Shown here: positions 7,578-49,875 of the stretch, piece after piece
Numbering within the stretch: position 1 is the stretch's first letter
How the letters are laid out: each line of letters opens with the position of its first letter
Source: a virus
DNA: 64,000 bases
Virus record (IMG/VR): IMGVR_UViG_3300031227_000028
Span: 1-64,000 of that record
Strand: one strand, 5' to 3'
The notes under the pieces: model-generated
The model's database searches: none
Told to the model about the DNA's origin: nothing
The model's input: only the letters and a program-made list of their open reading frames with translations
Position numbers and translations under genes: made by a program

Positions 7578-8327
7578 TTATTTAATTAATATTGGATTTC
7601 TATATGCTGTATATATGTTTGCTAAAATAACAGGTTTACCATATTCAATTCTATTATTAATATCTTTTTCTCCAAAATATTCTATAGATTTTTCAACCAT
7701 AAGTCCTCTATAACTAGTATTACTTTCAACAACATAAAAATTATTATCTTTAATAGATTCCCATAATAAAGATGCATGATTAAGATTAGATGCCCAACCA
7801 TTATTTGTATTCATTGGTGTTAAATTAAGATATAATCTATCTCCATATTTTGTTAATAAATTATTAAATTCTAACTGACAAATAATAAAATAGAACATAA
7901 AAATAGCATAATCGTCACAATCACCATAAAAATTATTTTCGCATAATTTGCTTGGCTTAAACCAACCATCAACTATATCTTTTACATATCTATTTTCTTT
8001 ATATAATTTTTCATATCTATAATTTAAAGAATCTAAAATAACTATATTAGCATTATTATTATTAATCCAAGCATCATTTTCAGTTATATAATTTCTCATC
8101 CATTCATATTCTTTTTGATCTAATAATTTATCAATTACAGGTCTCCAAGAACCATTAATATAGAATGTAGTATTTTTATTTTCAAAAGGTTTTAAATTAA
8201 CTCTTTTTCTTATTAAAGAATTTATATAAGAATTTTTTATATTATTCCAATTAGGATTAATAATAAAATTATCTATTTCGTTTATTATTTTATAATTTTT
8301 AATACAATTAAGAAACATATTGGTCAC
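7578..8327 (-). CDS. Transglutaminase-like cysteine peptidase
   Basis: This 249-residue protein carries a likely papain/transglutaminase triad. The cysteine is in GDCDDYAIFMFYF at about residue 140, the histidine in NHASLLWE, and an acidic residue follows in FYVVESN. Such proteins in phages can be peptidases, cell-wall hydrolases or amidases. The location next to a holin-like membrane protein and terminase suggests a lysis or entry enzyme. No signal peptide is visible. It overlaps the upstream HTH gene by 20 bases. Confidence 0.6.
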   Translation of the reverse strand: MTNMFLNCIKNYKIINEIDNFIINPNWNNIKNSYINSLIRKRVNLKPFENKNTTFYINGSWRPVIDKLLDQKEYEWMRNYITENDAWINNNNANIVILDSLNYRYEKLYKENRYVKDIVDGWFKPSKLCENNFYGDCDDYAIFMFYFIICQLEFNNLLTKYGDRLYLNLTPMNTNNGWASNLNHASLLWESIKDNNFYVVESNTSYRGLMVEKSIEYFGEKDINNRIEYGKPVILANIYTAYRNPILIK

Positions 8328-8532
8328 ACTCCTTATATTTAAATAATTTAGTTTTATAAGATTGATTTATAATATCAAAATCAATATCATTCCATTTCTT
8401 TAATTTTGCAATGGCTCTATAAACAGCTCCTTTAGATACTTTTAATATCTCTGCAAATTCATCTATAGAAAAACATTTACTTTTATTGTTTTTTGTTAAT
8501 ATTTTTATTTCGTTTTGACACAATTTACTCAA
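8308..8532 (-). CDS. Small helix-turn-helix DNA-binding protein
   Basis: A 74-residue protein with a clear HTH (SIDEFAEILKVSKGAVYRAIAKL), residues about 22-46, followed by a short basic strand region as in MarR/TrmB-like winged helices. It is probably a transcription regulator of the lysis/packaging genes it precedes. It lies just downstream of a tRNA-like gene. Confidence 0.6.
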   Translation of the reverse strand: MSKLCQNEIKILTKNNKSKCFSIDEFAEILKVSKGAVYRAIAKLKKWNDIDFDIINQSYKTKLFKYKECDQYVS

Positions 8533-8564
8533 CCCTCCAGTTTTTACACAAACAATTTAAATAA

Positions 8565-8644
8565 TGTCGCTACCCGGAATTGAACCGAGGTATTCCTAAC
8601 CTAGGAAATTTAATAGGCTATTCTTCCAATTAAATTATAGCGGC
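8565..8644 (-). tRNA. tRNA or tRNA-like gene, anticodon unresolved
   Basis: On the minus strand GCCGCTA pairs with TAGCGAC at the ends, except for a C:A mismatch at position 2:71. A perfect TΨC arm (CTCGG-TTCAATT-CCGGG) and a D-arm with GG in the loop follow the tRNA pattern. The anticodon arm is abnormal: GCCTA/TAGGT closes a 10-base loop, and an alternative stem ATTTAAT/ATTAAAT competes. No anticodon can be read safely. It may be a decayed tRNA or a tRNA-like element. Its own promoter lies upstream at about 8730. Confidence 0.6.
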
Positions 8645-8651
8645 ATAAAAA

Positions 8652-8674
8652 CATACCAATTTTTAATTGGTATG
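8652..8674 (-). other. Perfect 10-bp hairpin upstream of the tRNA-like gene
   Basis: CATACCAATT and AATTGGTATG are perfect complements with a three-base loop. The hairpin lies in the leader between the promoter and the tRNA-like gene, eight bases before the acceptor stem. It could guide 5' processing or bind a regulator. It is not followed by a T-run in the direction of transcription. Confidence 0.5.
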
Positions 8675-8696
8675 AAAAAGAAATGATTGGATAATA

Positions 8697-8741
8697 TATA
8701 TTATAATTATAATAATATGAACTAATATATAAATGTTGTTA
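8697..8741 (-). promoter_or_regulatory. Conserved TATA promoter with AT-repeat leader
   Basis: On the minus strand AACAACATTTATATATTAG is followed by TATTATAATTATAAT. This is the same core as in the repeated promoter cassettes of this genome, but without the GGAGAT ribosome site, consistent with an RNA gene downstream. Confidence 0.6.
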
Positions 8742-8751
8742 TTTATTCATT

Positions 8752-9099
8752 TTACATACCTTTACTAATTTTATGTATATTTTCTTTAGTTAAAGGTAAA
8801 ACTTCCTCATAAAATATTTTACGTTTAATTATTTCTTGGGTTTTCTTTGTTCCTTTGATTGCTGATTCCATAGATTTAGATACATAATCAATATATAATT
8901 TTAATCCAGCATCTTTATTAATCGCAGAAACTTCCATCAATCTTTGATATTCTTTTTCTAATTCATTGTATTTTATAGATGCTTCTATAGCAATCATACC
9001 TGTTAATTCTTTAATTCCATAACTTTCCCTTTCTTCATTAGTCATTTTTTCAGCTAATGTTAATTCAACATCTAATAATATTTTATTTTTATCTATCAT
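8752..9099 (-). CDS. Hypothetical coiled-coil protein
   Basis: A 115-residue, almost wholly helical, charged protein (KYNELEKEYQRLMEV, KGTKKTQEIIKRK). The frame is open upstream, but the ATG at 9099 follows the stop of the preceding gene by one base and has a purine run (AAGGTAATAAA) before it. The function is unknown. Confidence 0.5.
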   Translation of the reverse strand: MIDKNKILLDVELTLAEKMTNEERESYGIKELTGMIAIEASIKYNELEKEYQRLMEVSAINKDAGLKLYIDYVSKSMESAIKGTKKTQEIIKRKIFYEEVLPLTKENIHKISKGM

Positions 9100-33202: not shown

Positions 33203-33907
33203 ATGAAAATAAAAAAACAAATTATTAGAGATTTTTTAAAAGAAAGTGCATTATCTGGTGATAGTTCACTTACTGAAGTAAAATTAGATTTCAATGAACA
33301 AGCAATGTGCTTAACTGCAATAACTGGTGGTAATGCTGTAATGGTAAAAGCTCAATTAATTTCTGGTGCATTTGAAGAATATGAAGCAATTGGAAAAATT
33401 GGAATAATTAATTATTCTGAATTGACAAAAATTATTGATGCATTAAATGATAATATTGAAATTAATAAAGAAGGAAATTTATTAGTATTTAAAGGTGGGC
33501 GAAAAATTGAAGTACCATTAGCTGATGAATCATTAATTAAAGATATTTCAAAAATTCCTAGTTTAGAATATGATTATACATTTGCTTTGAATAAATCAGT
33601 ATTTGACGCTATTAATAAAAATATTGTATTCTCAATGAATAAAAATGATAGTAAAACTATTCAATTTACTGGTGAAAATAAAATATTAAATATTAAATAT
33701 GGTACTAAATATAAATTTGAAGATAGTATTGCAGTTAATGAAATTAATGCTAATAAAATTGATGTTAAATTTGGAGAGCCTTTATTAAATGCTATTACAA
33801 ATTTAAGTGGTGATTTAACAGTTCAAATGAAAAGCGAATTTCCAATAACTATTATGAAAAAAACTGAAATGTATGCAATTAAGATTATTGTAGCACCAAA
33901 AGTTTAA
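33203..33907 (+). CDS. PCNA-like sliding clamp
   Basis: A 234-residue protein with the two-domain beta-alpha-beta pattern of PCNA and T4 gp45 clamps: an N-terminal IRDFLKESALSG helix, DFNEQAMCLTAITGGNAVMV, an interdomain linker near residue 110-120 and a C-terminal strand ending MYAIKIIVAPKV. It should ring DNA as a trimer and hold the polymerase. It is followed by a loader gene. Several proteins in the window end in peptides that could bind it. Confidence 0.8.
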   Translation: MKIKKQIIRDFLKESALSGDSSLTEVKLDFNEQAMCLTAITGGNAVMVKAQLISGAFEEYEAIGKIGIINYSELTKIIDALNDNIEINKEGNLLVFKGGRKIEVPLADESLIKDISKIPSLEYDYTFALNKSVFDAINKNIVFSMNKNDSKTIQFTGENKILNIKYGTKYKFEDSIAVNEINANKIDVKFGEPLLNAITNLSGDLTVQMKSEFPITIMKKTEMYAIKIIVAPKV

Positions 33908-33955: not shown

Positions 33956-34882
33956 ATGAATATTGACGATTTAAAAAACATTGCATGGATGATTAAATAT
34001 AGACCAAAAACATTAGATAATGTTGTTGGAAAAGAAGCTAAACTATTGAAAAAATATGTTGATAGTAATAATTTACAACATTTTTTACTATCTTCTAGAA
34101 CACCAGGTACAGGAAAAACAACTTGTGCAAAAGCTATTATTAATGATACTGGAGCAGATTACATTGAAATAAATAGTAGTGATGAAAGAGGAATAGATGT
34201 TATTAGAGATAAAATTAAATTATTTGTTAGTACGATGAGTTCTAAACCTGGTTTAAAAAAAATTGTATTTTTAGATGAAATGGATTCTATGACTAAAACA
34301 GCTCAAGATGCACTTCGTAATATGATGGAGAAATTTATGACTAATGCTATCTTTATTCTAACTTGTAATTATATTGAAAAGGTTATTGAACCAATCAAAA
34401 ATCGTTGTGAAGTTATAGTTTTTGATAGTCCTGATAAAGCAGAGATTAGAAAATATTTATTGAATATCATAGATGCTGAAAGCGTTAAATATACTAGTGA
34501 TGGATTAAATAAATTAATTGATATGAATTATCCAAGTATAAGAGAATCTGTTAATACTTTACAAAAGTTTAAAACTATGGATATTGAATTGAATCCTATT
34601 AATTTAAAAAAAAATAATGAGAAATTTGATATTTTATGGACAGATATTAAAAGTGGTAAGGTTTTAAATGTTAGAAAAGAAATCTGTGAAAATAATTATA
34701 ACCCTGAATTATTATTAAAACATTTTTGGGCAAAAACATATACAGATGAAAAATTAACTATAAAACAAAAAATTAAATTAGTATCTGTATTAGCAGATGT
34801 TGATTATAAAATGAGTATTGGTGCATCAAAAAATATTCAAATAGATAATATGTTATTTAAAATAGTAGGTGCTTTAATATAA
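33956..34882 (+). CDS. Clamp loader ATPase (RFC small subunit / gp44-like)
   Basis: A 308-residue AAA+ protein. It opens with WMIKYRPKTLDNVVG, the RFC-box start, then Walker A TPGTGKTT (about residue 52), INSSDERG, Walker B IVFLDEMDS (about 105) and an arginine-finger motif IKNRCEV (usually SRC). Length and the TPGTGKT variant are close to T4 gp44. It should load the clamp with the next gene product. Confidence 0.88.
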   Translation: MNIDDLKNIAWMIKYRPKTLDNVVGKEAKLLKKYVDSNNLQHFLLSSRTPGTGKTTCAKAIINDTGADYIEINSSDERGIDVIRDKIKLFVSTMSSKPGLKKIVFLDEMDSMTKTAQDALRNMMEKFMTNAIFILTCNYIEKVIEPIKNRCEVIVFDSPDKAEIRKYLLNIIDAESVKYTSDGLNKLIDMNYPSIRESVNTLQKFKTMDIELNPINLKKNNEKFDILWTDIKSGKVLNVRKEICENNYNPELLLKHFWAKTYTDEKLTIKQKIKLVSVLADVDYKMSIGASKNIQIDNMLFKIVGALI

Positions 34883-34887
34883 TTAAA

Positions 34888-35382
34888 ATGGATTTATTCA
34901 AAACTTTAAATAAAATATATACTGCAAGAGATACTGATTGGGTTAAAGATATTGATAGTAATGTGTCAAATGTACCTATTAATATTATTTTATCATATAA
35001 TATTAAACTTAGTAATGTAGTAGCTTTTTTAGATAAATATACATTTAGATTAGATGTTAAGAATTTTTGTATATTAGCTTGGGCAATTATACACCCTAAA
35101 TATAATTCAATGCCTTTTAGTAAAAAAATAAAAGCTAATGAAAAAGAAAATAATAAATATCAATTTTTATTAGATAAAATACAAACTAGAATGGAAATAT
35201 CAAACAATGATTGGGTTGATTCTAAGAATTATTATATTGAAGACATTGAAAGAAGAATAACAGATTATTTAACTTTATTTGGTTGTACTAAAAAAGAATG
35301 GAAATCAATTGGAATTGATTTTGAAGAATCAAAAAAAATTAATATTGTAGATATAAAAAAAGGATTAGATAAATGGTTTTAA
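34888..35382 (+). CDS. Putative clamp-loader accessory subunit (gp62-like position)
   Basis: A 164-residue helical protein directly after the loader ATPase, the place of the T4 gp62-type subunit. Sequence similarity to gp62 is not visible. The last residues, KKGLDKWF, match the end of the DNA polymerase here and look like a PCNA-binding peptide. This supports a clamp-linked role. Confidence 0.5.
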   Translation: MDLFKTLNKIYTARDTDWVKDIDSNVSNVPINIILSYNIKLSNVVAFLDKYTFRLDVKNFCILAWAIIHPKYNSMPFSKKIKANEKENNKYQFLLDKIQTRMEISNNDWVDSKNYYIEDIERRITDYLTLFGCTKKEWKSIGIDFEESKKINIVDIKKGLDKWF

Positions 35383-35385
35383 TTA

Positions 35386-35483
35386 ACAAAACATTTATAT
35401 ATTATATATGTAATAAATAATTATATTGATAGGAGACTGTTACTCCTAATCAAATAGAACAAAAAAAATACGGAGATATAAAA
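35386..35483 (+). promoter_or_regulatory. Promoter and pseudoknot-like leader of the transporter gene
   Basis: AACAAAACATTTATATATTA is the TATA core. The leader holds AGGAG-ACTGTTA-CTCCT (35431-35447), then AATCAAATAGAAC, an A-run and ACGGAG before the ATG. Loop CTGT (35437-35440) could pair with ACGG (35470-35473), which overlaps the ribosome site. This H-type layout recalls preQ1 class I riboswitches. It is suggestive only. Confidence 0.45.
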
Positions 35484-36134
35484 ATGATAAATGAAATAAT
35501 AATAACTTACAAATTTTTTGGTAAGAGAGGCTTATTTGTATTCACAGGTATAGCAATAATCTTAGCAAATATACAAGTTTTGAAAACAGTACAATTATTT
35601 GGAATGGTTGCAACATTAGGTAATGTTATATATGGATGTTCTTTTTTGATAACAGATATATTATCTGAAAATCATGGGAAGAAAGATGCTAAGACAGCTG
35701 TTATAATAGGATTGTCTGCAGCAATAATATCAACTGTTATAATGTATATATGTACTTTATTCGTTCCACATTCAAGTGATTTCGCTAGTGGGGCTTTATC
35801 AACAATTTTTAGTGTTATGCCAAGAATAATGATTGCATCTTTAATAGCATATACAATATCTAACTTTAATGATGTACATATATTCCATAAAATAAAAGCT
35901 AAAACAGGAGATAAACATCTTTGGATTAGAAATATTGGTTCAACATTTTCAAGTCAATTATTAGATACAGTAATTTTTAGTGTAATAGCTTTCTGGGGAA
36001 TGTTTAGTAGAGATATATTTATTCAAATAATGTTAACTACATATATTATGAAAATTGTAACAGCAGCTTTAGATACACCTTTCCTTTATCTTGCTAAATG
36101 GATGAAGAAAAATGGTCATGTGAGTGAGGAATAA
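35484..36134 (+). CDS. yhhQ: Queuosine precursor transporter (YhhQ/VUT family)
   Basis: A 216-residue integral membrane protein with about six hydrophobic helices. The family signature TDILSENHGKKDAKTAV follows helix 2, and a conserved SQLLDTVIFSVIAFWG lies in the second half. Family members import preQ0 or preQ1. It is immediately followed by two TGT-like genes that would use such a base, so this virus appears to bring its own uptake system for 7-deazaguanine precursors. No de novo synthesis genes are in the window. Confidence 0.85.
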   Translation: MINEIIITYKFFGKRGLFVFTGIAIILANIQVLKTVQLFGMVATLGNVIYGCSFLITDILSENHGKKDAKTAVIIGLSAAIISTVIMYICTLFVPHSSDFASGALSTIFSVMPRIMIASLIAYTISNFNDVHIFHKIKAKTGDKHLWIRNIGSTFSSQLLDTVIFSVIAFWGMFSRDIFIQIMLTTYIMKIVTAALDTPFLYLAKWMKKNGHVSEE

Positions 36135-36135
36135 A

Positions 36136-37287
36136 ATGGATAGAAATTTTTTTGAAGAGAATAAATTAGTATATTTGCCAGCAACCCTTCCATCTGCTGA
36201 GTTATGTATAAATAATGATGAACCAACTGCAAAACAACCTCACTTTTGGAATAAAGAAACATCAATATGGTACTATCCAAATTTATTAATTAGTGCATAT
36301 CATGCAGATAAAATTGAAGATATTAGAAAATTAATGGGAATAGATAAAGATGTAAAAATTCTTTATGATAGTGGAGGTTACCAAATGGTAACCTTAGGAG
36401 GAAATATTAATCCTAAAGATTTAATAGAATTACAATTAAAAAATTCTAATGCTGGCCTTATATTAGATAATCCTCCTTTTAAAATAGGATTAGGAAATTC
36501 ACAGTTTGGTGAATCAATGAATGAAGATGAAATATCAATATGTCTTAATAAAACAAAAGAGAATGCTAAAATTGCAATGGCTAATAATATAGGACCAAAT
36601 AAAATTAGATTATATGGTGTAGTGCAAGGAGAATCATGGGAACAAATTAATAGATGGTATGATTCAATGCATGAATTAGAAGAAGAATATGGAAAATTTG
36701 ATGCCTGGGCAATGTCACCAAAACCATCAACAATAGCATTATATGGAATTTTATTATTAGAAAGAAAAATTAAAACCCCAATACATTTTTTACAGGCTAC
36801 AAGTAGAGAAGCAATATCCACTACCGCATATATTAGAAAATTATCAAAAAATTTGATAACTATTGATAGTTCAAATTTTTCATCTGGTACAAGATATGGA
36901 AGAATAATAAATTATGAGCATTTAGGTATATTTGATATAGGCGAAGGAAAAAGAGAAAAAAATAAAAAAGGTTGGTTTTGTGATTGTCCTATTTGTAGAG
37001 AAAGAAAAATTGATATTGAAAATTTATCAACAACAGATTTAAAATATATAAATATTCATAATTTATATCAAATAGTTAAAATTGTAAAAGTTGCAGATTG
37101 GTTAGTTGATTATAGTGAAGTAATGTTTTTTAATTGGATTAAGAAATTTAAATCATCATGCACTGGTGCAATTAAAATGTTACAATTTTATGATAAATAT
37201 GGATTAGAAAGAACTAAATTAAATTACTCAGATATATTCACAGCAAATGATAATATAGTAAATCAAAAAGGTTTATTTGATTTTTAA
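36136..37287 (+). CDS. DpdA/TGT-like 7-deazaguanine transglycosylase, paralog 1
   Basis: A 383-residue protein of the tRNA-guanine transglycosylase superfamily, viral DpdA type. It has DSGGYQ at residues 78-83, RLYGVVQGESWE, FDAWAMSPKPS, TIDSSNFSSG, and a zinc site CDCPIC with a later HNLYQ. DpdA enzymes swap guanine in DNA for a 7-deazaguanine base, protecting viral DNA from restriction. The start at 36136 has GAGG upstream. The C-terminus NQKGLFDF resembles a clamp-binding (PIP) peptide. A tRNA substrate cannot be excluded. Confidence 0.78.
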   Translation: MDRNFFEENKLVYLPATLPSAELCINNDEPTAKQPHFWNKETSIWYYPNLLISAYHADKIEDIRKLMGIDKDVKILYDSGGYQMVTLGGNINPKDLIELQLKNSNAGLILDNPPFKIGLGNSQFGESMNEDEISICLNKTKENAKIAMANNIGPNKIRLYGVVQGESWEQINRWYDSMHELEEEYGKFDAWAMSPKPSTIALYGILLLERKIKTPIHFLQATSREAISTTAYIRKLSKNLITIDSSNFSSGTRYGRIINYEHLGIFDIGEGKREKNKKGWFCDCPICRERKIDIENLSTTDLKYINIHNLYQIVKIVKVADWLVDYSEVMFFNWIKKFKSSCTGAIKMLQFYDKYGLERTKLNYSDIFTANDNIVNQKGLFDF

Positions 37288-37312
37288 ATTATATAGATTA
37301 GGAGAAAATAAA

Positions 37313-38458
37313 ATGAAAAGAACATTTTTTGAAAATAATAAATTAGTTTTTATCCCTGCAATTTTACCTAATAAAGATCTTTTTGGTAAAGAAACAGATA
37401 AATATTCTTTTTTTTCTGATAAGTCTTTATATTTTTATCCTAATGTTTTAATTAGTGCATATCACGGGAAACATTTAGATATTAGGAAAGAATTAGAATG
37501 TAATGATAATGTTATGATTTTAGGTGATTCAGGTGGATTTCAAGCAGTAACTTTAGGTGGCGATATAAACGCTAAAGAAGTTATTAAATGGCAAATGAAT
37601 AATTGTAATGCTGGTTTAATACTTGATAAGCCTCCATATAAATTTGGTGGAACAGCGCAATTTGCAGGTACACCATCTAAAGAATTTTTTAATGAATGTT
37701 TAGAAAAAACAAAACAAAATGCTTTAATAGCTCTTGAACATAATAAAGGCGAAAAGAAAATTAGATTATATGGAGTAATTCAAGGCGAAACATGGGAACA
37801 AATGAAACAATGGTATGAAACAATATCATCAATTCAAACAAATGAGAAAAAATTTGATGCATGGGCATTATCACCAAAACCATCAAATGATGTTTTTAAA
37901 ATTGCAATGCTTGGTATTTTATGTTTAGAAAAAAAAATAGATACACCATTGCATATACTTCAAATTTCAAATCGTCCTGGAATAATAGTTGCTGCTTTAA
38001 TAAGATTTTGTATTCAACAAACAGTAACTATAGATAGTTCTTCTCCTTCAAAAGCATCACGTTTTGGGGAAATATATAATCCATATACATTTTTAGCAGA
38101 AATTAAAACCGGGCAAAGAAGACCAAAAGAAAAAATGAATGGATGGATGTGTGATTGCCCAATATGTCAAGCAACTAATATATCTTTTAATGATGTTGAA
38201 AATAAAAATTATGAAAATATTTTGGATTTACATAATTTATATCAAATAGTGCGTTTTGTAAAATATATGGATTGGGTAGTACAAGATAAAGAAATATTAA
38301 TGAAAATGGTAAAAACTGTTTCAATTAATGCTTATAATGCAATTGAAATGATTTATTATTATAAAGAATATGGATTAGAAAGAACTAAATTAAAATATCC
38401 AAATGTATTTGAATCAAATAATGATGCATCAAATCAAAAAGGATTATTTGAATTTTAA
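37313..38458 (+). CDS. DpdA/TGT-like 7-deazaguanine transglycosylase, paralog 2
   Basis: A 381-residue paralog of the preceding gene and clearly a tandem duplicate: MKRTFFENNKLVFIPA against MDRNFFEENKLVYLPA. It has GDSGGFQ, RLYGVIQGETWEQ, FDAWALSPKPS, TIDSSSPSKASRFG, zinc site CDCPIC and HNLYQ. Both copies keep all visible motifs, so both may be active, possibly on different sequence contexts or bases or as a heterodimer. The C-terminus NQKGLFEF again looks like a clamp-binding peptide. Confidence 0.78.
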   Translation: MKRTFFENNKLVFIPAILPNKDLFGKETDKYSFFSDKSLYFYPNVLISAYHGKHLDIRKELECNDNVMILGDSGGFQAVTLGGDINAKEVIKWQMNNCNAGLILDKPPYKFGGTAQFAGTPSKEFFNECLEKTKQNALIALEHNKGEKKIRLYGVIQGETWEQMKQWYETISSIQTNEKKFDAWALSPKPSNDVFKIAMLGILCLEKKIDTPLHILQISNRPGIIVAALIRFCIQQTVTIDSSSPSKASRFGEIYNPYTFLAEIKTGQRRPKEKMNGWMCDCPICQATNISFNDVENKNYENILDLHNLYQIVRFVKYMDWVVQDKEILMKMVKTVSINAYNAIEMIYYYKEYGLERTKLKYPNVFESNNDASNQKGLFEF

Positions 38459-38467
38459 GGTAATAAA

Positions 38468-38941
38468 ATGGCTGTGAAACAAGAAACATATGATAAATGG
38501 ATAGCTAAATATGGTCCAAATGCAAGAATTGGTTTAGATATTATAGGTAAATGTAATTTATATCCTAAAGAATTAGGGAGAATATTTTTACCTACAATAA
38601 CAGAGGCAATTAAAAAAAATAATTGTTATATAATTGATGATAGGAATTGGGTATTTTTTAATTATAATAAAAAATTAAATAAAATGAAACTTCAATATAT
38701 ATTATCAATGGACCATAAAGGAACTATTTTATTAAAACATCTTGAATCAATTTGTGCAGAAAGACATATTCCTATAATTTATTTAACTGTTGTTGCAGGA
38801 ATGCCAGCAGTTGATTGGTATTATAAAAAAGGTTTTATAAAAGTTAAAGAAAGACATTCAAGGAAGGGAACTTTATTGTTTGATGTTGAGAAGAAGTTTT
38901 TTAAAATAGGTTTAGAGAAATGGTATAAAAATGAAATATAA
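38468..38941 (+). CDS. GNAT-like acetyltransferase
   Basis: A 157-residue protein. The order of segments fits the GNAT fold: KLQYILSMDHKGTILLKHLE (strand 4 and helix 3), IPIIYLTVVAGMPAVDWYYKKGF (strand 5 and helix 4). It follows the two TGT-like genes with nine bases between and overlaps the polymerase gene, so it may further decorate the modified base or modify a protein. Near the C-terminus KIGLEKWY resembles the GLDKWF clamp peptide of its neighbours. Confidence 0.55.
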   Translation: MAVKQETYDKWIAKYGPNARIGLDIIGKCNLYPKELGRIFLPTITEAIKKNNCYIIDDRNWVFFNYNKKLNKMKLQYILSMDHKGTILLKHLESICAERHIPIIYLTVVAGMPAVDWYYKKGFIKVKERHSRKGTLLFDVEKKFFKIGLEKWYKNEI

Positions 38942-41048
38942 ATCGCAAATAGACAAAATGATTAGTAATTGTTTGGTATATGATATAGAAACAAGCGCTA
39001 GTTATCCTGATGGTAAACCAATAAACATTAAAACAGATTTTAAAAATTATATTAAATATGCAATAGTTAAATGGGTAGGTTTTTATTCTTATAAATATAA
39101 TAAATATTATGAATATAATGCTATTATACAACTTGATGAAATTGACCAAATGTTTAAAGACCATAGACATATTATTGGTATAAATAATATAGAATTTGAT
39201 ACTCCTATTTGTATGAATAATAATATTATAAAACAATATCAACATAAACAAATAGATTTACAGGTTATTCTTGGAAATAATTTATTACAAGGGCATAAAA
39301 ATAGAGCAACATTTATGGGTGTAAATTTAAAAAAAATTATTATTAATGATAAAGAATATGGACCTAATACTTTAATGAGTTTAGCTTATCATTTTAATTT
39401 ACCAGTATTAAAAGGAGATATAGATTATAATATATTTTTTAAAAATCATTGGGATGAAAAAGAAACTAAAAATATTATTAAATATTTACATGGTGATATA
39501 GAAGTAACTAAATTATTATTTGATAAAGTAATTAATTTCTGGACTATATTTACAGATTGGTTATATATTGAAGATGTAGAAAAATGGGCTTGGTTAAAAA
39601 GTAGTATTGCCAGTTTAACTTATCTTGCAGCATGTAAAGTTAAAAATGTTTTACCAACATATGGAAGTATAGGAGAAACTGAAGATATGGGTGGAAGAGC
39701 AGTAATGCCTATTAAAGATGAAATATATAATGTTCATTATTTAGATGAAGCATCTAAATATCCACATATATTTGCTCAGTTTAATTTATTTAGTGAAGTA
39801 GATATATCAAGTTATACTAATGAACAAATTGAAAAAGCAATTGCAAATAATATAATATGGCATGGCAATGATAAATTTAAAGTTAAAGGATATTATTATA
39901 TAAAAGAACAATCTATATTAGCTAAAGATGTATTAAATAAATTAAAAACAAGAATAGCTGTTAAGAAAATACTTAAAAAAGATAAAAATGGTAAATATAT
40001 TAATATTGATGAACATAATTATATGAAAATAGAAATTGACCCATTGTTAAAAGATTTTATATTTGATAAACAATTATCTGATTATATTATAAATTCATTA
40101 AATGGATTACAATATGCTATTAAAATCTTTTTAAATTCATTATATGGTGCAGTTAGAAGTGGAATATTTGAACAAATACATACTCCTAATGCTGGATATG
40201 ATTGTTGTTGGATTGGTCAACAAATTCATGAAAAAGTTGAAAAAGAATTTAAAGACCGTGGATATGACACAGTAGGTGGATTTACAGATTCCTGGTTTAT
40301 AGAAAAAAAAGAAGGAGATACTAGAGAATTAATGATTAAATATTGTAAAACTATAATGAACAAATTAAAAGAATCATTTATTTTTCCTGCAGATACACAT
40401 ATAATTGATTATGAATGTTTTATGGATTATTTATTATATAATAAAGATAAGAAAAATGAATATAAAAAAAATAATTATTGTTTCATATCTAATGGTAAAG
40501 TTAAAGTTGTAGGATTTCCTATAAAAAAAAGTAATTCATCTAAACTAGGAAATATAATACTTAATAAATATATTATTCTAGAAGGATTAAAAAGAAATAA
40601 TTTAAAATTTAAAAAGAAATATTTTGATAATATAATTGCAGAAGAATTAAAAAATGATATTACTTTATCTGCTGTTGTTTTTAAATGTAATCCATCAATA
40701 ACTTATAAAAAAATAAATCAATTACAAGCACAAGTAAGTCGAGCATATTTTGATGGTTTAGGTGGAGAAATAGCTATAATTAAAAATAAAAAATTTGGTA
40801 AAGTAGGAAAAACAAATAAATATTGTACTATAAAAGAAGCAATAGAAAATAATATACAAGTTGAAGATTTAGATTTAACTAAATTATTTAATGAACTTAA
40901 TCCATTTATTAGAAAAGAAAAAGATATGGATTTATTTAGTTTTGTTGGTGGTGATGATAATTTATTTGATGAAAAAGTTGATGAAAAAGTTGATGAAAAA
41001 GTTGATGAAAAAGTTGAAACAAAAACGGGGCTAGATAAATGGTTTTGA
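38931..41048 (+). CDS. Family B DNA polymerase
   Basis: A 705-residue polymerase. The 3'-5' exonuclease has YDIET (residues 17-21), INNIEFD and YLHGDIEVTK. Polymerase motif A is YLDEASKYP (about 270), motif B KIFLNSLYG (about 398) and motif C GGFTDSW (about 449). Motif C normally reads Y-x-D-T-D-S; here the first Asp is Phe, while the second catalytic Asp stays. The chain is short for the family. Residues before the end hold four DEKV repeats (40968-41015) as a flexible tether, then KTGLDKWF, a PIP-like peptide. It overlaps the GNAT gene by 11 bases. Confidence 0.87.
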   Translation: MKYKSQIDKMISNCLVYDIETSASYPDGKPINIKTDFKNYIKYAIVKWVGFYSYKYNKYYEYNAIIQLDEIDQMFKDHRHIIGINNIEFDTPICMNNNIIKQYQHKQIDLQVILGNNLLQGHKNRATFMGVNLKKIIINDKEYGPNTLMSLAYHFNLPVLKGDIDYNIFFKNHWDEKETKNIIKYLHGDIEVTKLLFDKVINFWTIFTDWLYIEDVEKWAWLKSSIASLTYLAACKVKNVLPTYGSIGETEDMGGRAVMPIKDEIYNVHYLDEASKYPHIFAQFNLFSEVDISSYTNEQIEKAIANNIIWHGNDKFKVKGYYYIKEQSILAKDVLNKLKTRIAVKKILKKDKNGKYINIDEHNYMKIEIDPLLKDFIFDKQLSDYIINSLNGLQYAIKIFLNSLYGAVRSGIFEQIHTPNAGYDCCWIGQQIHEKVEKEFKDRGYDTVGGFTDSWFIEKKEGDTRELMIKYCKTIMNKLKESFIFPADTHIIDYECFMDYLLYNKDKKNEYKKNNYCFISNGKVKVVGFPIKKSNSSKLGNIILNKYIILEGLKRNNLKFKKKYFDNIIAEELKNDITLSAVVFKCNPSITYKKINQLQAQVSRAYFDGLGGEIAIIKNKKFGKVGKTNKYCTIKEAIENNIQVEDLDLTKLFNELNPFIRKEKDMDLFSFVGGDDNLFDEKVDEKVDEKVDEKVETKTGLDKWF

Positions 41049-46360: not shown

Positions 46361-46496
46361 ATGTATAAGACAACAAGTTTAACCAATATGTGTATGAGTA
46401 ATTTATTACTTGCGTCATTTTAGTTATAACTATGTTGTTAAGCTTATTCTTTTTATTTATCTGTTTAACAACAGGTTGAAATATATTAAAATTTAT

Positions 46497-46572
46497 AGAA
46501 GTGTAGGCTAGTCAGGTCAAAGTCACGCGGCTCATGACCGTGAGAACGTTGGTTCAAATCCGACCACTTCTA
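46497..46572 (+). tRNA. tRNA-Met (CAT)
   Basis: Acceptor AGAAGTG/CACTTCT, anticodon stem CGCGG/CCGTG with loop CTCATGA, TΨC arm GTTGG-TTCAAAT-CCGAC. The A1:T72 pair and GC-rich anticodon stem raise the option of an initiator. A CAT anticodon could also be tRNA-Ile2, but a separate TAT isoleucine tRNA is present. Confidence 0.9.
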
Positions 46573-46608
46573 TTTTGTTTAAATGTACATTTAAATAAAC
46601 GTGATAAA

Positions 46609-46669
46609 AATAATTACCTACCGTTTAGAAACGAAAGGAGGAGTGATTCCCTCGTTGCAAGGAATTATT
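46609..46669 (+). ncRNA. Candidate three-way-junction RNA between tRNAs
   Basis: AATAATT (46609) pairs with AATTATT (46663), reinforced by CC/GG. Inside lie two hairpins, CGTTT-AG-AAACG and GAGG-loop-CCTC. The element is compact and noncoding. It could be a small RNA or processing signal. Confidence 0.4.
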
Positions 46670-46682
46670 GTTTATTTTTATT

Positions 46683-46753
46683 GCCGATGTAGTATAATGG
46701 TATTATACCTGGCTGTTGACCAGATGATAGGGGTTCAATTCCCTTCGTCGGCG
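46683..46753 (+). tRNA. tRNA-Asn (GTT)
   Basis: Acceptor GCCGATG/CGTCGGC, D-arm GTAT/ATAC, anticodon stem CTGG/CCAG with loop CTGTTGA, TΨC arm AGGGG-TTCAATT-CCCTT. Confidence 0.9.
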
Positions 46754-46759
46754 TTTTAT

Positions 46760-46880
46760 ACGTGTGTGGCTGATTGGTAAAAGCGCTGGACTTAGAATGA
46801 AAATTCGTCTACAAGATGTTTTTACATAAGTTATCCAGTTTCCTAAGTGGATGTTGTGTGTTCAATTCATACCACACGTA
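46760..46880 (+). tRNA. tRNA-Leu (TAG) with intron
   Basis: Acceptor ACGTGTG/CACACGT, anticodon stem CTGGA/TCCAG, loop CTTAGA-A, type II variable arm, TΨC arm GTGTG-TTCAATT-CATAC. A 36-base insertion (46797-46832) follows position 37, the canonical archaeal intron site. Splicing needs a host tRNA endonuclease. Confidence 0.88.
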
Positions 46881-46887
46881 TTTTTAT

Positions 46888-46971
46888 GCTACGATGGCTC
46901 AATATGGCACAGCAACAGATTGCTAATCTGTGAGACAATAACTCTTTTCGGTTCAAATCCGAATCGTAGCG
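46888..46971 (+). tRNA. tRNA-Ser (GCT)
   Basis: Acceptor GCTACGA/TCGTAGC, anticodon stem ACAGA/TCTGT with loop TTGCTAA, variable arm GAG/CTC, TΨC arm TTCGG-TTCAAAT-CCGAA, discriminator G. Confidence 0.92.
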
Positions 46972-47069
46972 TTGAAGGAGAAGCTAAAAATGGTCTTATT
47001 GGAAGCAAGAGGCAATGCTTGACGAAGAGAAACTTATAACTGTAGCGGGTTATACATTCATTATTTTTT

Positions 47070-47150
47070 GCTAACAAAGCGAATGGTAAGCGTGCCGTCT
47101 TGAAAACGGTTGGTCCTTGCGGCTCGTCAGTTCGAATCTGGCTGTTAGCG
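47070..47150 (+). tRNA. tRNA-Ser (TGA)
   Basis: Acceptor GCTAACA/TGTTAGC, anticodon stem GCCGT/ACGGT with loop CTTGAAA, long variable arm, TΨC arm GTCAG-TTCGAAT-CTGGC, discriminator G. Confidence 0.9.
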
Positions 47151-47179
47151 TTATTAAAATAAAAAAAATATAAATTATT

Positions 47180-47253
47180 GGGCGAATAGTTAAATCTGGT
47201 ATAACGTCCCGCTTGCAACGGGGAGGCTTCGGGTTCAAATCCCGATTTGTCCA
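47180..47253 (+). tRNA. tRNA-Ala (TGC)
   Basis: Acceptor GGGCGAA/TTTGTCC includes the G3:U70 wobble that identifies alanine tRNA. Anticodon stem TCCCG/CGGGG with loop CTTGCAA, TΨC arm TCGGG-TTCAAAT-CCCGA. Confidence 0.93.
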
Positions 47254-47262
47254 TATATTAAA

Positions 47263-47463
47263 ATGAGTTATGATAAAAATCATACAAAAGACGATTGTGA
47301 TAAATGTCTTGAAAGGGTTGGAAAAGAAAATTTAACACCTATTAAGTTTTTATATCTTGATAGGAATGATTTAATGCATCCTGATTATTATCATAACGCA
47401 ACTAAAGCACAAAAAGATTACAAATTATATTATGTTTGTAAAAATTGTTTAAAAAATTATTAA
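47263..47463 (+). CDS. Zinc-binding protein inside the tRNA cluster
   Basis: A 66-residue protein with CDKC and CKNC pairs, an HxxY-rich middle and no other motif. It sits between tRNA-Ala and tRNA-Thr with ten or fewer free bases on either side. It may aid tRNA processing, but this is only position-based. Confidence 0.55.
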   Translation: MSYDKNHTKDDCDKCLERVGKENLTPIKFLYLDRNDLMHPDYYHNATKAQKDYKLYYVCKNCLKNY

Positions 47464-47464
47464 T

Positions 47465-47538
47465 GCACGTGTGGCACAGTGGTCTACTGCGTCTGCCTTG
47501 TAAGCAGAATTACCCCAGTTCAAATCTGGGTACGTGCT
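47465..47538 (+). tRNA. tRNA-Thr (TGT)
   Basis: Acceptor GCACGTG/TACGTGC, anticodon stem TCTGC/GCAGA with loop CTTGTAA, TΨC arm CCCAG-TTCAAAT-CTGGG, discriminator T. Its first bases follow the stop of the preceding gene almost directly. Confidence 0.93.
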
Positions 47539-47544
47539 TTTTAT

Positions 47545-47616
47545 GCATCATTGGGCAAGTGGTAAGTCGTCTGTCTGCAAAACAGAAGAACCCCGGTTCA
47601 ATTCCGGGATGATGCT
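47545..47616 (+). tRNA. tRNA-Cys (GCA)
   Basis: Acceptor GCATCAT/ATGATGC, anticodon stem TCTGT/ACAGA with loop CTGCAAA, TΨC arm CCCGG-TTCAATT-CCGGG. Confidence 0.93.
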
Positions 47617-47617
47617 T

Positions 47618-47902
47618 ATGGTAAAATATAAAAAAAAATATGGGCATGAATATCCAACATTAACAGTTCCAATGAAATCACTTCAAGAAGAAAATTTATT
47701 TATTAATCCTTATTGGAATGAATGGAATACTCAAAAAGATAGTTTAAGAGTTATATGTGATAATAAAAAAATAGTTAAACAAAATAAAAATAGAATACAT
47801 AAATTTTCAGTTTGGGATATTAGAGAAAAAGGAATACAAGAAAAAAATAAAAAAAAATTAATTATAAGAAAGAAAAGAAAATTATTAAATAATATTATTT
47901 AA
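47618..47902 (+). CDS. Basic hypothetical protein inside the tRNA cluster
   Basis: A 94-residue protein (MVKYKKKYGHEYPTLTVPMK), very basic at the C-terminus (KKLIIRKKRKLL). The frame runs back through tRNA-Cys, but the ATG at 47618, one base after the tRNA, is the realistic start. Possible RNA-binding protein. Confidence 0.5.
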   Translation: MVKYKKKYGHEYPTLTVPMKSLQEENLFINPYWNEWNTQKDSLRVICDNKKIVKQNKNRIHKFSVWDIREKGIQEKNKKKLIIRKKRKLLNNII

Positions 47903-47904
47903 TA

Positions 47905-47950
47905 CAAACATTTATATATTAGATATGGTTTTATATAATTATAATAAATA
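47905..47950 (+). promoter_or_regulatory. Second TATA promoter in the tRNA cluster
   Basis: AATACAAACATTTATATATT, AGATATGGTTTTATATAATT. It divides the cluster into two transcription units. Confidence 0.55.
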
Positions 47951-48174
47951 ATCTTAATATTAATTTATTAAGAAATATTAAATAACTAGATAATTATAGG
48001 TGTTATCCCAATCATATTAAAATGAACATACAAGAATGGAGACAGGACGGGGAAAGAGGCTTTGACATAGTGTTTAAGCCTATCTATCGTTAGTCCTTCC
48101 ATGGTTCATATCAATTTCTAAATAAATAAAAAAGAACATTGGCCATGTGCCATGGAATTCTAAAAAAAATATAC
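47951..48174 (+). other. Noncoding stretch with hairpins and a possible 23-residue ORF
   Basis: GGAC and GTCC enclose GGCTT/AAGCC in 48040-48100, so a structured RNA is possible. A 23-codon frame (48022-48093, MNIQEWRQDGERGFDIVF) overlaps this hairpin and has no ribosome site. I see no other gene. Confidence 0.35.
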
Positions 48175-48245
48175 AGTCGTATAGTTTAATGGTAAAATTA
48201 TCCGTTTACACCGGATGGCTATGAGTTCAATTCTCATTGCGACTA
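48175..48245 (+). tRNA. tRNA-Val (TAC)
   Basis: Acceptor AGTCGTA/TGCGACT, anticodon stem ATCCG/CGGAT with loop TTTACAC, TΨC arm ATGAG-TTCAATT-CTCAT. Confidence 0.9.
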
Positions 48246-48259
48246 TAATAAACCTTTAT

Positions 48260-48332
48260 GCTCTAATGGTCTAGTGGACAATGACATCTGGCTTTCGACC
48301 AGAAGACCTGAGTTCAATTCTCGGTTGGGGTA
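48260..48332 (+). tRNA. tRNA-Glu (TTC)
   Basis: Acceptor GCTCTAA/TTGGGGT with several G:U pairs, anticodon stem TCTGG/CCAGA with loop CTTTCGA, TΨC arm CTGAG-TTCAATT-CTCGG. The D-arm is nearly identical to that of tRNA-Gln in this cluster. Confidence 0.88.
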
Positions 48333-48338
48333 CTTTAC

Positions 48339-48413
48339 TGGGTGGTGGTCTAGTTTGGCTAAGACTCTCGACTTGGACTCGAGAAACCGGGGGTTCAAAT
48401 CCTCCCCATCCAA
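48339..48413 (+). tRNA. tRNA-Pro (TGG)
   Basis: Acceptor TGGGTGG/CCATCCA, D-arm GTCT/AGAC, anticodon stem CTCGA/TCGAG with loop CTTGGAC, TΨC arm GGGGG-TTCAAAT-CCTCC. Confidence 0.92.
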
Positions 48414-48423
48414 TATTTATTTT

Positions 48424-48495
48424 GCCTGTGTAGTGTAATGGCTATCACATGAGACTGTCTATCTCAAAATTTGGGTTCAATTCCCAGCATGGGCG
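48424..48495 (+). tRNA. tRNA-Asp (GTC)
   Basis: Acceptor GCCTGTG/CATGGGC, anticodon stem TGAGA/TCTCA with loop CTGTCTA, TΨC arm TTGGG-TTCAATT-CCCAG, discriminator G. Confidence 0.92.
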
Positions 48496-48499
48496 TTAT

Positions 48500-48574
48500 G
48501 GAAGTATAGCTTAATCTGGTTAAAGCACCGGTCTTATATACCGTTGAATCTGGGTTCAAATCCCAGTATTTCCA
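48500..48574 (+). tRNA. tRNA-Ile (TAT)
   Basis: Acceptor GGAAGTA/TATTTCC, D-arm GCTT/AAGC, anticodon loop CTTATAT closed by four good pairs (CGGT/ACCG), TΨC arm CTGGG-TTCAAAT-CCCAG. The UAU anticodon reads AUA directly. Most archaea instead use a CAU tRNA with agmatidine. Confidence 0.9.
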
Positions 48575-48579
48575 TTTAT

Positions 48580-48652
48580 GGACGTATGGCTAAGTGGTTA
48601 AGGCAGTCGACTGATATTCGAAAGAACACCGGTTCAAATCCGGTTATGTCCA
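48580..48652 (+). tRNA. tRNA-Ile (GAT)
   Basis: Acceptor GGACGTA/TATGTCC, anticodon loop CTGATAT closed by TCGA/TCGA, TΨC arm ACCGG-TTCAAAT-CCGGT. Confidence 0.92.
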
Positions 48653-48658
48653 TTTTAT

Positions 48659-48768
48659 GCACCCATAGTCTAAACTGGAAGGGCTCTTGGCTTCGATACA
48701 ATTGTATGGCTAGTAAGACGCTTTTTTGAAGATACCAAGGTATCCGGGTTCAAATCCCGGTGGGTGCT
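48659..48768 (+). tRNA. tRNA-Arg (TCG) with intron
   Basis: Acceptor GCACCCA/TGGGTGC, anticodon stem CTTGG/CCAAG, loop start CTTCGA, TΨC arm CCGGG-TTCAAAT-CCCGG. A 37-base insertion (48697-48733) follows position 37, again the canonical archaeal intron site. Confidence 0.88.
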
Positions 48769-48773
48769 TTTAT

Positions 48774-48847
48774 GTGAATGTAGCAAAACGGTTTAATGCA
48801 CTCGACTTTTAATCGAGAGACTGAGGGTTCAAATCCCTTCATTCACA
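48774..48847 (+). tRNA. tRNA-Lys (TTT)
   Basis: Acceptor GTGAATG/CATTCAC, anticodon stem CTCGA/TCGAG with loop CTTTTAA, TΨC arm GAGGG-TTCAAAT-CCCTT. Confidence 0.93.
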
Positions 48848-48854
48848 TTTTTAT

Positions 48855-48927
48855 AGGGTAGTGGTCTAGTGGACAATGACATCTGACTTTGGATCAGAAA
48901 ACGGCAGTTCAATTCTGCCCTACCCCA
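48855..48927 (+). tRNA. tRNA-Gln (TTG)
   Basis: Acceptor AGGGTAG/CTACCCC with an A:C mismatch at 1:72, anticodon stem TCTGA/TCAGA with loop CTTTGGA, TΨC arm GGCAG-TTCAATT-CTGCC. Confidence 0.9.
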
Positions 48928-48932
48928 TAATT

Positions 48933-49004
48933 GCTTGCATAGCATAACGGTTAATGCTTCAGGTTGTGGTCCTGATAATCTGGGTTCAATTCCCAGTGTA
49001 AGCT
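48933..49004 (+). tRNA. tRNA-His (GTG)
   Basis: Acceptor GCTTGCA/TGTAAGC, D-arm GCAT/ATGC, anticodon stem TCAGG/CCTGA with loop TTGTGGT, TΨC arm CTGGG-TTCAATT-CCCAG. The extra G at position -1 is not encoded. Confidence 0.92.
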
Positions 49005-49011
49005 TTTTAAT

Positions 49012-49084
49012 GGACATATAGCATAATGGGAGTGCGCTGAGCTGAAGCCTCAGTATTGTTGGAGTTCGACTCTCCATATGTCCA
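49012..49084 (+). tRNA. tRNA-Phe (GAA)
   Basis: Acceptor GGACATA/TATGTCC, anticodon stem CTGAG/CTCAG with loop CTGAAGC, TΨC arm TGGAG-TTCGACT-CTCCA. Confidence 0.92.
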
Positions 49085-49094
49085 TCATATTAAA

Positions 49095-49601
49095 ATGGCA
49101 TACGAACTATATAAAATAAAAAAGGATAAAGAAAATTATTTTAAAGATTGGTCTAGTGATAAACTTTTAACTTTAACTGACGAAATAAAAGAAGTAGTCT
49201 ATAAAAAGTATTTAGTTAAATGTGATGTTTTTAAAAGAGATAATTATAGTTGTCAAAATATTAATTGTAAAAATTTAAATAGTCCATTAACAATGCATCA
49301 TGTTAAATTTCAAAAAAATGGTGGAGAACATAAAATAAAAAATTGTGTAACTTTATGTGAACCATGTCACGTTTTATTTCATAGAGCTAGAACAGCAATT
49401 ACTTATAAAAATAATAAATATCTTCCTATTCATATTAGAGGTAAAACTTTTATGTTAGATAGACAAGATAAAATTAACTGGAAAGAAATTAAAAGTCATA
49501 TGAGAAAACTTAGAAAAACTTTAAGAAAAGAAAGAATTTATTTAAGTTGGAAAGATATGAATTTATTAATGAAATTTTTAGAATTAAATTTTGAAGATTA
49601 G
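49095..49601 (+). CDS. HNH endonuclease inside the tRNA cluster
   Basis: A 168-residue protein. VFKRDNYSCQNINC, LTMHHVKFQKNGGEHKIKNC and LCEPCHVLFHR give the zinc pairs and the H-N-H core. The C-terminal part is basic and Trp-containing. The start at 49095 avoids overlapping tRNA-Phe. An HNH gene between tRNA genes suggests a selfish or homing element that may have helped gather tRNAs, or a nicking enzyme. Confidence 0.78.
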   Translation: MAYELYKIKKDKENYFKDWSSDKLLTLTDEIKEVVYKKYLVKCDVFKRDNYSCQNINCKNLNSPLTMHHVKFQKNGGEHKIKNCVTLCEPCHVLFHRARTAITYKNNKYLPIHIRGKTFMLDRQDKINWKEIKSHMRKLRKTLRKERIYLSWKDMNLLMKFLELNFED

Positions 49602-49606
49602 TTTAT

Positions 49607-49681
49607 GTATCTGTAGTGTAGTTTGGTCTATCATCTGGGACTTCCAATTCTGGGACGTGGGTTCGAATCCCACCGGGTACA
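49607..49681 (+). tRNA. tRNA-Gly (TCC)
   Basis: Acceptor GTATCTG/CGGGTAC, anticodon loop CTTCCAA closed by a wobble-rich stem (TGGGA/TTCTG), TΨC arm GTGGG-TTCGAAT-CCCAC. Confidence 0.87.
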
Positions 49682-49688
49682 TTTTTAA

Positions 49689-49759
49689 CCGCTCGAGATA
49701 TTTGGTAATCATACGAGGCTGTAACCCTTGTTCTATCGGTTCAATTCCGGTCGGGTGGA
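49689..49759 (+). tRNA. tRNA-Tyr (GTA)
   Basis: Acceptor CCGCTCG/CGGGTGG carries C1:G72, the archaeal/eukaryotic tyrosine identity pair (bacteria use G1:C72). Anticodon stem CGAGG/CCTTG with loop CTGTAAC, short variable loop, TΨC arm ATCGG-TTCAATT-CCGGT. Confidence 0.92.
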
Positions 49760-49767
49760 TTTTTAAT

Positions 49768-49840
49768 GGGCTGTTGGTGAAATCTGGTATCATATTTGGC
49801 TCCAGACCAAATGTTATGGGTTCAAATCCCATGCAACCCA
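49768..49840 (+). tRNA. tRNA-Trp (CCA)
   Basis: Acceptor GGGCTGT/GCAACCC with a C:A mismatch at 4:69, anticodon stem TTTGG/CCAAA with loop CTCCAGA, TΨC arm ATGGG-TTCAAAT-CCCAT. Confidence 0.92.
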
Positions 49841-49875
49841 TATATAAAAGCTTTATAAAGGCTTTATAAACCCTT

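Follow-up and report, generated by a model that had tools for sequence, protein, structure and literature searches.

Replication proteins and two DpdA-like base-exchange enzymes encoded in one block of a viral genome end in short peptides that resemble sliding-clamp-binding motifs, and the same block encodes a PCNA-type clamp. The block lies in IMG/VR virus record IMGVR_UViG_3300031227_000028 (82,856 bases in total), of which bases 1 to 64,000 were analysed (hereafter, the window). Similar tails recur on DpdA-like proteins of some other viruses, where they are of the same kind as the tail of the virus's own polymerase. It is likely that the DpdA tails tether these enzymes to the clamp of the virus concerned, in which case bases would be replaced behind the polymerase.

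The replication block and its C-terminal tails

The block ran in the following order on the plus strand.

33203–33907, plus strand: virus-encoded PCNA-type sliding clamp, 234 amino acids (AlphaFold model, Foldseek and profile)
33956–34882, plus strand: clamp loader small subunit of the RFC/gp44 type, AAA+ (phrog_168, E 4.1e-66; PF00004, E 2.1e-20)
34888–35382, plus strand: putative second clamp-loader subunit, gp62-like, ending KKGLDKWF (identity to relatives)
35484–36134, plus strand: queuosine-precursor transporter without a clamp tail (PF02592, E 5.8e-50; TIGR00697, E 1.2e-61)
36136–37287, plus strand: DpdA-like base-exchange enzyme 1 (TGT1), TGT fold, ending NQKGLFDF (model and alignment)
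37313–38458, plus strand: DpdA-like base-exchange enzyme 2 (TGT2), ending NQKGLFEF (TIGR00449, E 2.8e-10, below the curated cut-off)
38468–38941, plus strand: GNAT-like protein with a possible degenerate clamp peptide, KIGLEKWY (PF13673, E 2.1e-4, below cut-off)
38931–41048, plus strand: diverged family-B-like DNA polymerase ending KTGLDKWF after a VDEK-repeat linker (relatives, alignment and motifs by eye)

The tail strings quoted in an earlier note on this DNA were all present and exact. Compared with the PCNA-interacting peptide (PIP) box consensus used here, Qxxhxxaa (Q at position 1, L, I or M at position 4 and aromatics at positions 7 and 8; PMC3012046), the KxGLDKWF of the polymerase and loader subunit has K in place of Q, and the QKGLFDF of the TGT-like enzyme has Q1 and L4 and stops at position 7. 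The (V)DEKV repeat preceding the polymerase tail is a 12-bp tandem repeat of 4.3 copies (40966–41017). Five proteins of the block had been proposed to carry clamp peptides; the tails of four (loader subunit, polymerase and both DpdAs) are convincing and go beyond chance, and that of the GNAT-like protein is weak. Its KIGLEKWY sits four residues before the C-terminus, so that the tail fails the motif pattern used below, and its orthologue at locus L103 (43% identical) lacks the W-Y pair, ending KIGLEQYEI. The GNAT tail, half retained in this single orthologue, was rejected as a conserved motif. The GNAT-like gene lies between DpdA and polymerase in the window and adjoins DpdA in L103 too; as a guess, its product could acylate the inserted base.

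TGT2 was 47% identical to TGT1, for which the start codon was the ATG at 36136. The TGT1 model, made from an eight-row alignment, had a mean predicted local distance difference test score (pLDDT) of 77.9. Its last 13 residues scored below 50, which fits a flexible tail that probably lies outside the folded domain. The top PDB match of the model in Foldseek was 7ui4, the DNA preQ0 insertase DpdA (E 2.3e-7), followed by the TGT 3bll (E 2.9e-7); as modelled, the enzyme has the TGT fold of a DpdA. Residues D77, D243, C281, C283, C286 and H307 were invariant across the eight-row DpdA alignment and aligned to the archaeosine TGT 1iq8 (E 3.7e-12). They comprise two aspartates, which we take to be the TGT active-site residues, and a CxCxxC...H zinc site, as expected for a DpdA. 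A supply of 7-deazaguanine precursor is predicted from the transporter, and DpdA relatives adjoin QueD-, QueE- and FolE-like genes (by eye; annotated as such in phages ACP17 and nt-1). We infer that the window DpdAs act on DNA and not on tRNA.

A profile of long-form DpdAs scored window copies 1 and 2 at E 1.5e-16 and 6.6e-20, respectively. The T4-like DpdA2 profile scored copy 1 at E 1.6e-7, and copy 2 was not among the matches listed. Assignment of the pair to nt-1-type DpdA2 was rejected because the long-form profile fits better and the pair groups with L103 and L117 (see below). The nt-1-type DpdA2 is without the histidine conserved in 9g-type DpdA (PMC6884629).

The clamp at 33203, called PCNA-like in the earlier note, was borne out as such. 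Its AlphaFold model (mean pLDDT 73.9) had yeast PCNA 7ti8_G as top Foldseek match (E 1.2e-14), and a profile built from six such clamps matched PDB PCNAs (three-copy fusion, 1.2e-35; best single-copy chain, 7.7e-24). The predicted PCNA fold is that of a single chain rather than of the ring form. Pfam gave nothing above cut-off for this protein (PCNA_N at E 0.08 only), and PF00705 run over the window's own record had no match and missed the clamp. The putative second loader subunit had no Pfam match of its own. It was 28, 39 and 27% identical to counterparts in L007, L091 and L008, respectively, and the L008 counterpart matched the phrog_225 clamp loader (E 1.4e-7). The window polymerase had no Pfam polymerase match, its motifs being identified by eye, and no match in the phage collection by tblastn. 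Its relative in L004 matched annotated phage DNA polymerases with E down to 2e-7.

Tails among relatives identified by catalytic domain

Relatives were found by catalytic domain (polymerase and TGT scans, and a search of the records reached) using patterns that exclude the tails; for some scans, relatives were taken among the matches listed. Single-protein scans of viral contigs with TGT1 or the loader small subunit gave no relative, and alignment queries succeeded. The genome collection contributed three relatives: one Pacearchaeota bin, one Bacilli bin and one Gammaproteobacteria bin. One contig (L001) has a polymerase identical to that of the window and shares its TGT2 and polymerase tails, so that it does not count as independent evidence.

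Seven viruses held tailed short DpdA-like proteins. In addition to the window pair, these ended TKQTSLF (L002), TKQKTLF (L006), SKKTLF (L020), TKQVGIFNF (L091), KQNSLFDF (L103) and YQQSVFDF (L117). Polymerase tails were QKGLW (L002), QLGLW (L006), QKELW (L004), QKALW (L102), SLDDWGL (L103), SLNQWFK (L117), NIFDFQNGK (L091), QPNLFDWN (L007), KTKKWF (L008), QMDLLAWTNC (L092), QKELLKWTNI (L093) and QKQLKMWSE (L104); loader-subunit tails were KKGLDMWF (L007), QHGLDKWGM (L091) and KKQTWW (L008). In six viruses (window, L002, L006, L091, L103 and L117) both the DpdA and the neighbouring polymerase were tailed, the polymerase tails of L091, L103 and L117 being judged by eye and missing the stricter pattern given next. 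The earlier note had named tails lost from homologues that keep their domains as the result that would tell against it. Tails were mostly kept, in homologues at about 20–47% identity; the untailed exceptions were L092 and six T4-like DpdA2s.

A stricter motif (S2), [QK]..[LIMV]([FW]|..[FWY]).{0,3}$ at the C-terminus, was matched by 8 of 10 short DpdA-like proteins, 9 of 14 polymerases and three of four loader subunits, versus 10 of 295 other open reading frames (ORFs) from 14 loci. This background leaves out L005 (a near-copy of L004), L094, L104 and L113. It is conservative, since the L004 methyltransferase and the L103 GNAT are among its 10 matches. A looser motif (S1) was matched by 9 of 10 DpdAs and 37 of 295 other ORFs. 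When the last 14 residues of the DpdAs were shuffled, a mean of 0.43 of 10 fitted S2. Among closed long-form viral DpdAs (at least 480 amino acids; 57 distinct, from the matches listed, the sample being drawn from the best 80 of 248), an S2 tail was found in 0 of 71, and at all four long-form loci with a polymerase found by profile the DpdA was without a matching tail.

A PCNA-like clamp gene accompanied the tailed DpdA and polymerase in the records of the window, L002 and L091 (in L091 the gene is in two pieces). These three pairings, together with the annotated clamp and clamp loader of the T4-like phage ACP17, speak against the tails binding a host clamp instead of a viral one, a possibility we regard as quite improbable. 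In its favour, a search at E 0.01 gave no clamp for L006, L020, L092, L093, L103 and L117, whose records may be fragments or drafts, and QxxLF resembles the bacterial beta-clamp motif.

Tails in T4-like phages

Using the BUCT-ZZ01 protein as a tblastn query, 70 phage records were found, including that of nt-1, whose protein defines DpdA2 (PMC6884629); 10 of the 70 were read, covering six host genera. A DpdA2 tail was present in 4 of these 10 (shuffled mean 0.005), all four being cultured phages, and in each it resembled the gp43 tail of the same phage: ACP17 (DpdA2 TTLDELFE, gp43 PSLDDLFE), X1 (QSLEELFG, SSLESLFG), Ps15 (NSLDDLFG, SSLEDLFGW) and BUCT-ZZ01 (ASLDSFFD, STLDDFFS). The phages with an untailed DpdA2 have gp43 tails of VSLEDFFS (pf16) or TLESFFG (vibriophages nt-1, KVP40, F86, K566 and 1.081.O).

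The T4-type pattern L[DE].[LF]F.{0,2}$ was run over 150,000 of 156,281 bases of ACP17, the whole of BUCT-ZZ01, 160,000 of 161,350 bases of Ps15 and 200,000 of 200,058 bases of X1. In ACP17 it matched 3 of 1268 all-frame ORFs (2 of 201 picked ORFs), the matches being gp43, DpdA2 and a gp26-type protein. BUCT-ZZ01 had four matches among 241 picked ORFs, namely the same three kinds and, in addition, a glycosyltransferase-like protein, and Ps15 (3 of 249) and X1 (3 of 303) each had gp43, DpdA2 and a gp26-like protein. Shuffling predicted 0.04–0.07 matches per genome. The gp26-type baseplate protein ends GL[DE]xFF, like a clamp peptide, and has no obvious role at the clamp; it was named from the ACP17 annotation and from PF12322 for the BUCT-ZZ01 copy (L165:7844-8554, E 6.1e-56), and by eye in Ps15 and X1.

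That the tails resemble clamp peptides by chance, or as a C-terminal strand of the fold, is very unlikely. For this explanation speak the ending of the gp26-type protein, the 37 of 295 ORFs matching the looser motif, the half-conserved GNAT tail and the background matches that are conserved C-termini of one unrelated protein (window 26352, L002 15846 and L102 14854). It is countered by the S2 enrichment and the shuffles, by the low model confidence of the TGT1 tail and by the likeness of DpdA2 to gp43 tails within each of four T4-like phages.

Among 402 picked ORFs of nt-1, a looser pattern matched gp43, one minus-strand ORF and VPFG_00169 (NSLANFF). The last resembles archaeosine synthase ArcS (PF17884, E 3.3e-11; NF040592, E 2e-7, far below cut-off), and an ArcS homologue is encoded by nt-1 (PMC6884629). 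Judging from its sequence, the clamp-type tail of nt-1 sits on another enzyme of the same pathway, ArcS-like and not DpdA2. About 0.11% of Gs in nt-1 DNA are dPreQ0 and 0.02% dG+, and phage 9g replaces up to 27% of deoxyguanosine (PMC6884629). Trace modification with an untailed DpdA2 fits the tail hypothesis and, as a single case, is suggestive. In Vibrio phage 1.081.O a protein near DpdA2 (L138:1-585) ends TGLLAFFG; it was rejected as an ArcS relative, having no similarity to the nt-1 protein.

Phylogeny of DpdA

A DpdA tree of 32 rows, from which the last 15 residues had been cut beforehand, placed the window pair with L103 and L117, in a group distinct from both the nt-1-type DpdA2 and the long forms. 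Four long branches (L002, NCTB, L113 and Ps15) were of uncertain position. Tailed and untailed DpdAs interleaved, and the supported branches force at least four gains or losses. A single origin of the DpdA tail was rejected on this basis, and the interleaving indicates that tails were probably gained or lost several times.

Tails on other modification enzymes and neighbouring genes

In L004 and L005, the gene immediately preceding that of the polymerase encodes an N6/N4 DNA methyltransferase (PF01555, E 4e-12) that ends KQKRLF. L008 carries an amino acid:DNA transferase (ADDT; PF18724, E 2.2e-21) and a P-loop-like protein ending KQGWF (NTPase_1, E 4.8e-4, below cut-off; phrog_800 terminase small subunit, E 7.5e-9), for which NCBIfam gave no name. 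A 5-hydroxymethyluracil DNA kinase had been guessed for the latter from its proximity to ADDT; Pfam, PHROGs and NCBIfam did not support this. Four of 26 picked ORFs in L008 end W[FW] (loader subunit, polymerase, P-loop-like protein and one other protein), and in the other 13 loci 3 of 294 ORFs end [WF][FW] (one polymerase and two loader subunits). A 164-amino-acid protein without family assignment adjoins the L008 loader subunit (L008:3758-4252) and ends SDGKWF.

By eye, a glycosyltransferase-like gene and a QueD-like gene (the latter of 110–120 amino acids) seem to adjoin DpdA repeatedly, in viruses that are not related to one another:

L002:5963-7870: glycosyltransferase-/QueD-like genes
L020:4318-4677 and 7935-8999: glycosyltransferase-/QueD-like genes
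L091:4370-6312: glycosyltransferase-/QueD-like genes
L132:3083-4495: glycosyltransferase-/QueD-like genes

One of the L002 copies had a weak PF00534 match (E 0.0026) and the other no Pfam match. Additional decoration of the modified base is possible. Apparent inteins, also by eye, were seen in QueE-like proteins (L002:2597-4009 and L103:435-2213) and in a polymerase (L007:8977-12122). The signs were added length and, for the L007 polymerase, a split over two overlapping ORFs. Elsewhere in the window, 20 tRNA genes lie within 3.3 kb (46496–49841) and serve 18 amino acids, Arg and Leu missing.

Discussion

On the proposed mechanism, the replication block supplies its own PCNA-type clamp, loader, polymerase and two DpdA-like enzymes. 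The DpdAs would swap guanine in DNA for a 7-deazaguanine precursor that the transporter (35484) imports. The polymerase, loader subunit and both DpdAs would dock in the client pocket of the clamp through their flexible C-terminal peptides. Riding the ring that trails the polymerase, the DpdAs would exchange bases in the new duplex before nucleases see the DNA. The tail would be a module that can be carried by different proteins and fits whichever clamp the virus has, with PCNA-type peptides alongside a PCNA-like clamp and gp45-type peptides in some T4-like phages, and the same module may be present on the ArcS-like protein, the methyltransferase and the glycosyltransferase-like protein. The analysis established the tail sequences, their conservation, their likeness to polymerase tails, the predicted clamp and TGT folds and the low-confidence tail of the model; binding, coupling to the fork, the identity of the base and DNA as the substrate are what we infer.

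Known systems offer parallels. In mammals, DNMT1 carries a PIP box and modifies DNA at the fork together with PCNA; its task is cellular maintenance methylation, in contrast to viral base replacement here. The interaction of T4 alpha-glucosyltransferase with gp45 was reportedly described by Sommer in 2004. This enzyme co-purifies with gp45, whereas the beta-glucosyltransferase does not (PMC13216743). It is thus a phage DNA-modification enzyme bound to the phage's own sliding clamp, and differs in that it glucosylates hydroxymethylcytosine already in DNA, while DpdA replaces the base. In a solved structure the C-terminal peptide of RB69 gp43 sits on gp45, in a pocket that is largely hydrophobic, and the clamp follows behind the polymerase (PMC3012046). 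RB69/T4 gp43 and T4 RNase H have PIP boxes that dock in a pocket on the outer face of the clamp, that of gp43 being C-terminal; both are replication and not modification enzymes, and the RNase H peptide is N-terminal (PMC3012046). DpdA and DpdA2 are likewise TGT-fold enzymes encoded alongside preQ0 synthesis and transport genes (PMC6884629; PDB 7ui4), and the word clamp is absent from the main text of the former source.

Several results weigh against clamp-tethered DpdA. The L092 DpdA has no tail at its C-terminus and a degenerate DQKALVEE internally, the tail of the L113 DpdA is ambiguous, the L094 polymerase has no tail, and neither has a methyltransferase-like gene (by eye) adjoining the polymerase in L102. 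Six of the 10 T4-like phages read (pf16, nt-1, KVP40, F86, K566 and 1.081.O) lack a DpdA2 tail. L020 (record G007) has a tailed DpdA (L020:8992-10194) and a PolA-type polymerase, and a PCNA-like clamp was not found there; this tail may serve the host clamp. The S2 enrichment of DpdAs over background (Fisher p 1.1e-9) is indicative only, as the motif was written after the tails had been seen and the rows are related. In a permutation of 11 pairs, which took only pairs of a tailed DpdA and a known polymerase, DpdA and polymerase tails matched at p 0.00015. Within the PCNA type (seven pairs, the window counted twice) the match was not significant (p 0.12), and within the T4 type (four pairs) p was 0.04, the lowest attainable with four pairs. 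Most of the tail match therefore lies between the two clamp types.

The share of alpha-glucosylation in T4 is attributed mainly to expression and not to clamp contact (PMC13216743). This also favours the view that the tails do bind the clamp, but, for example, for storage, inhibition, nick loading, late transcription or packaging rather than for fork-coupled modification, as does the activation of late transcription by the T4 clamp (PMC2988020). We nevertheless judge this view unlikely, because the tailed enzymes are predicted to act on DNA and the L004 enzyme bearing such a tail beside the polymerase is a DNA methyltransferase. Tethering of DpdA for base replacement behind the polymerase is the reading we prefer.

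No published description of a clamp-tethered DpdA was found in the open-licence PMC literature, judged by title and start of abstract. The statement in the earlier note that no case was known thus stands for DpdA, and is qualified by the precedent of T4 alpha-glucosyltransferase binding gp45 (PMC13216743). The concept of a clamp-bound DNA modifier is already known; what appears to be new is the enzyme class, its placement next to a PCNA-like clamp of viral origin and the repeated occurrence of matched tails.

It is nearly an even bet that T4-like phages and viruses with a PCNA-like clamp use the sliding clamp as a general platform on which DNA is modified. Unrelated enzymes would then repeatedly gain the type of clamp peptide found on the resident polymerase, and the extent of replacement in the genome would depend on which enzyme of a pathway is tailed. 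These enzymes would include DpdA, the ArcS-like protein, the methyltransferase, the glycosyltransferase-like protein and perhaps the P-loop protein of a thymine-hypermodification cluster. A clamp tail would offer a direct, testable answer to how guanine replacement is timed relative to replication, and a search based on such tails could reveal new DNA-modification enzymes in viral genomes.

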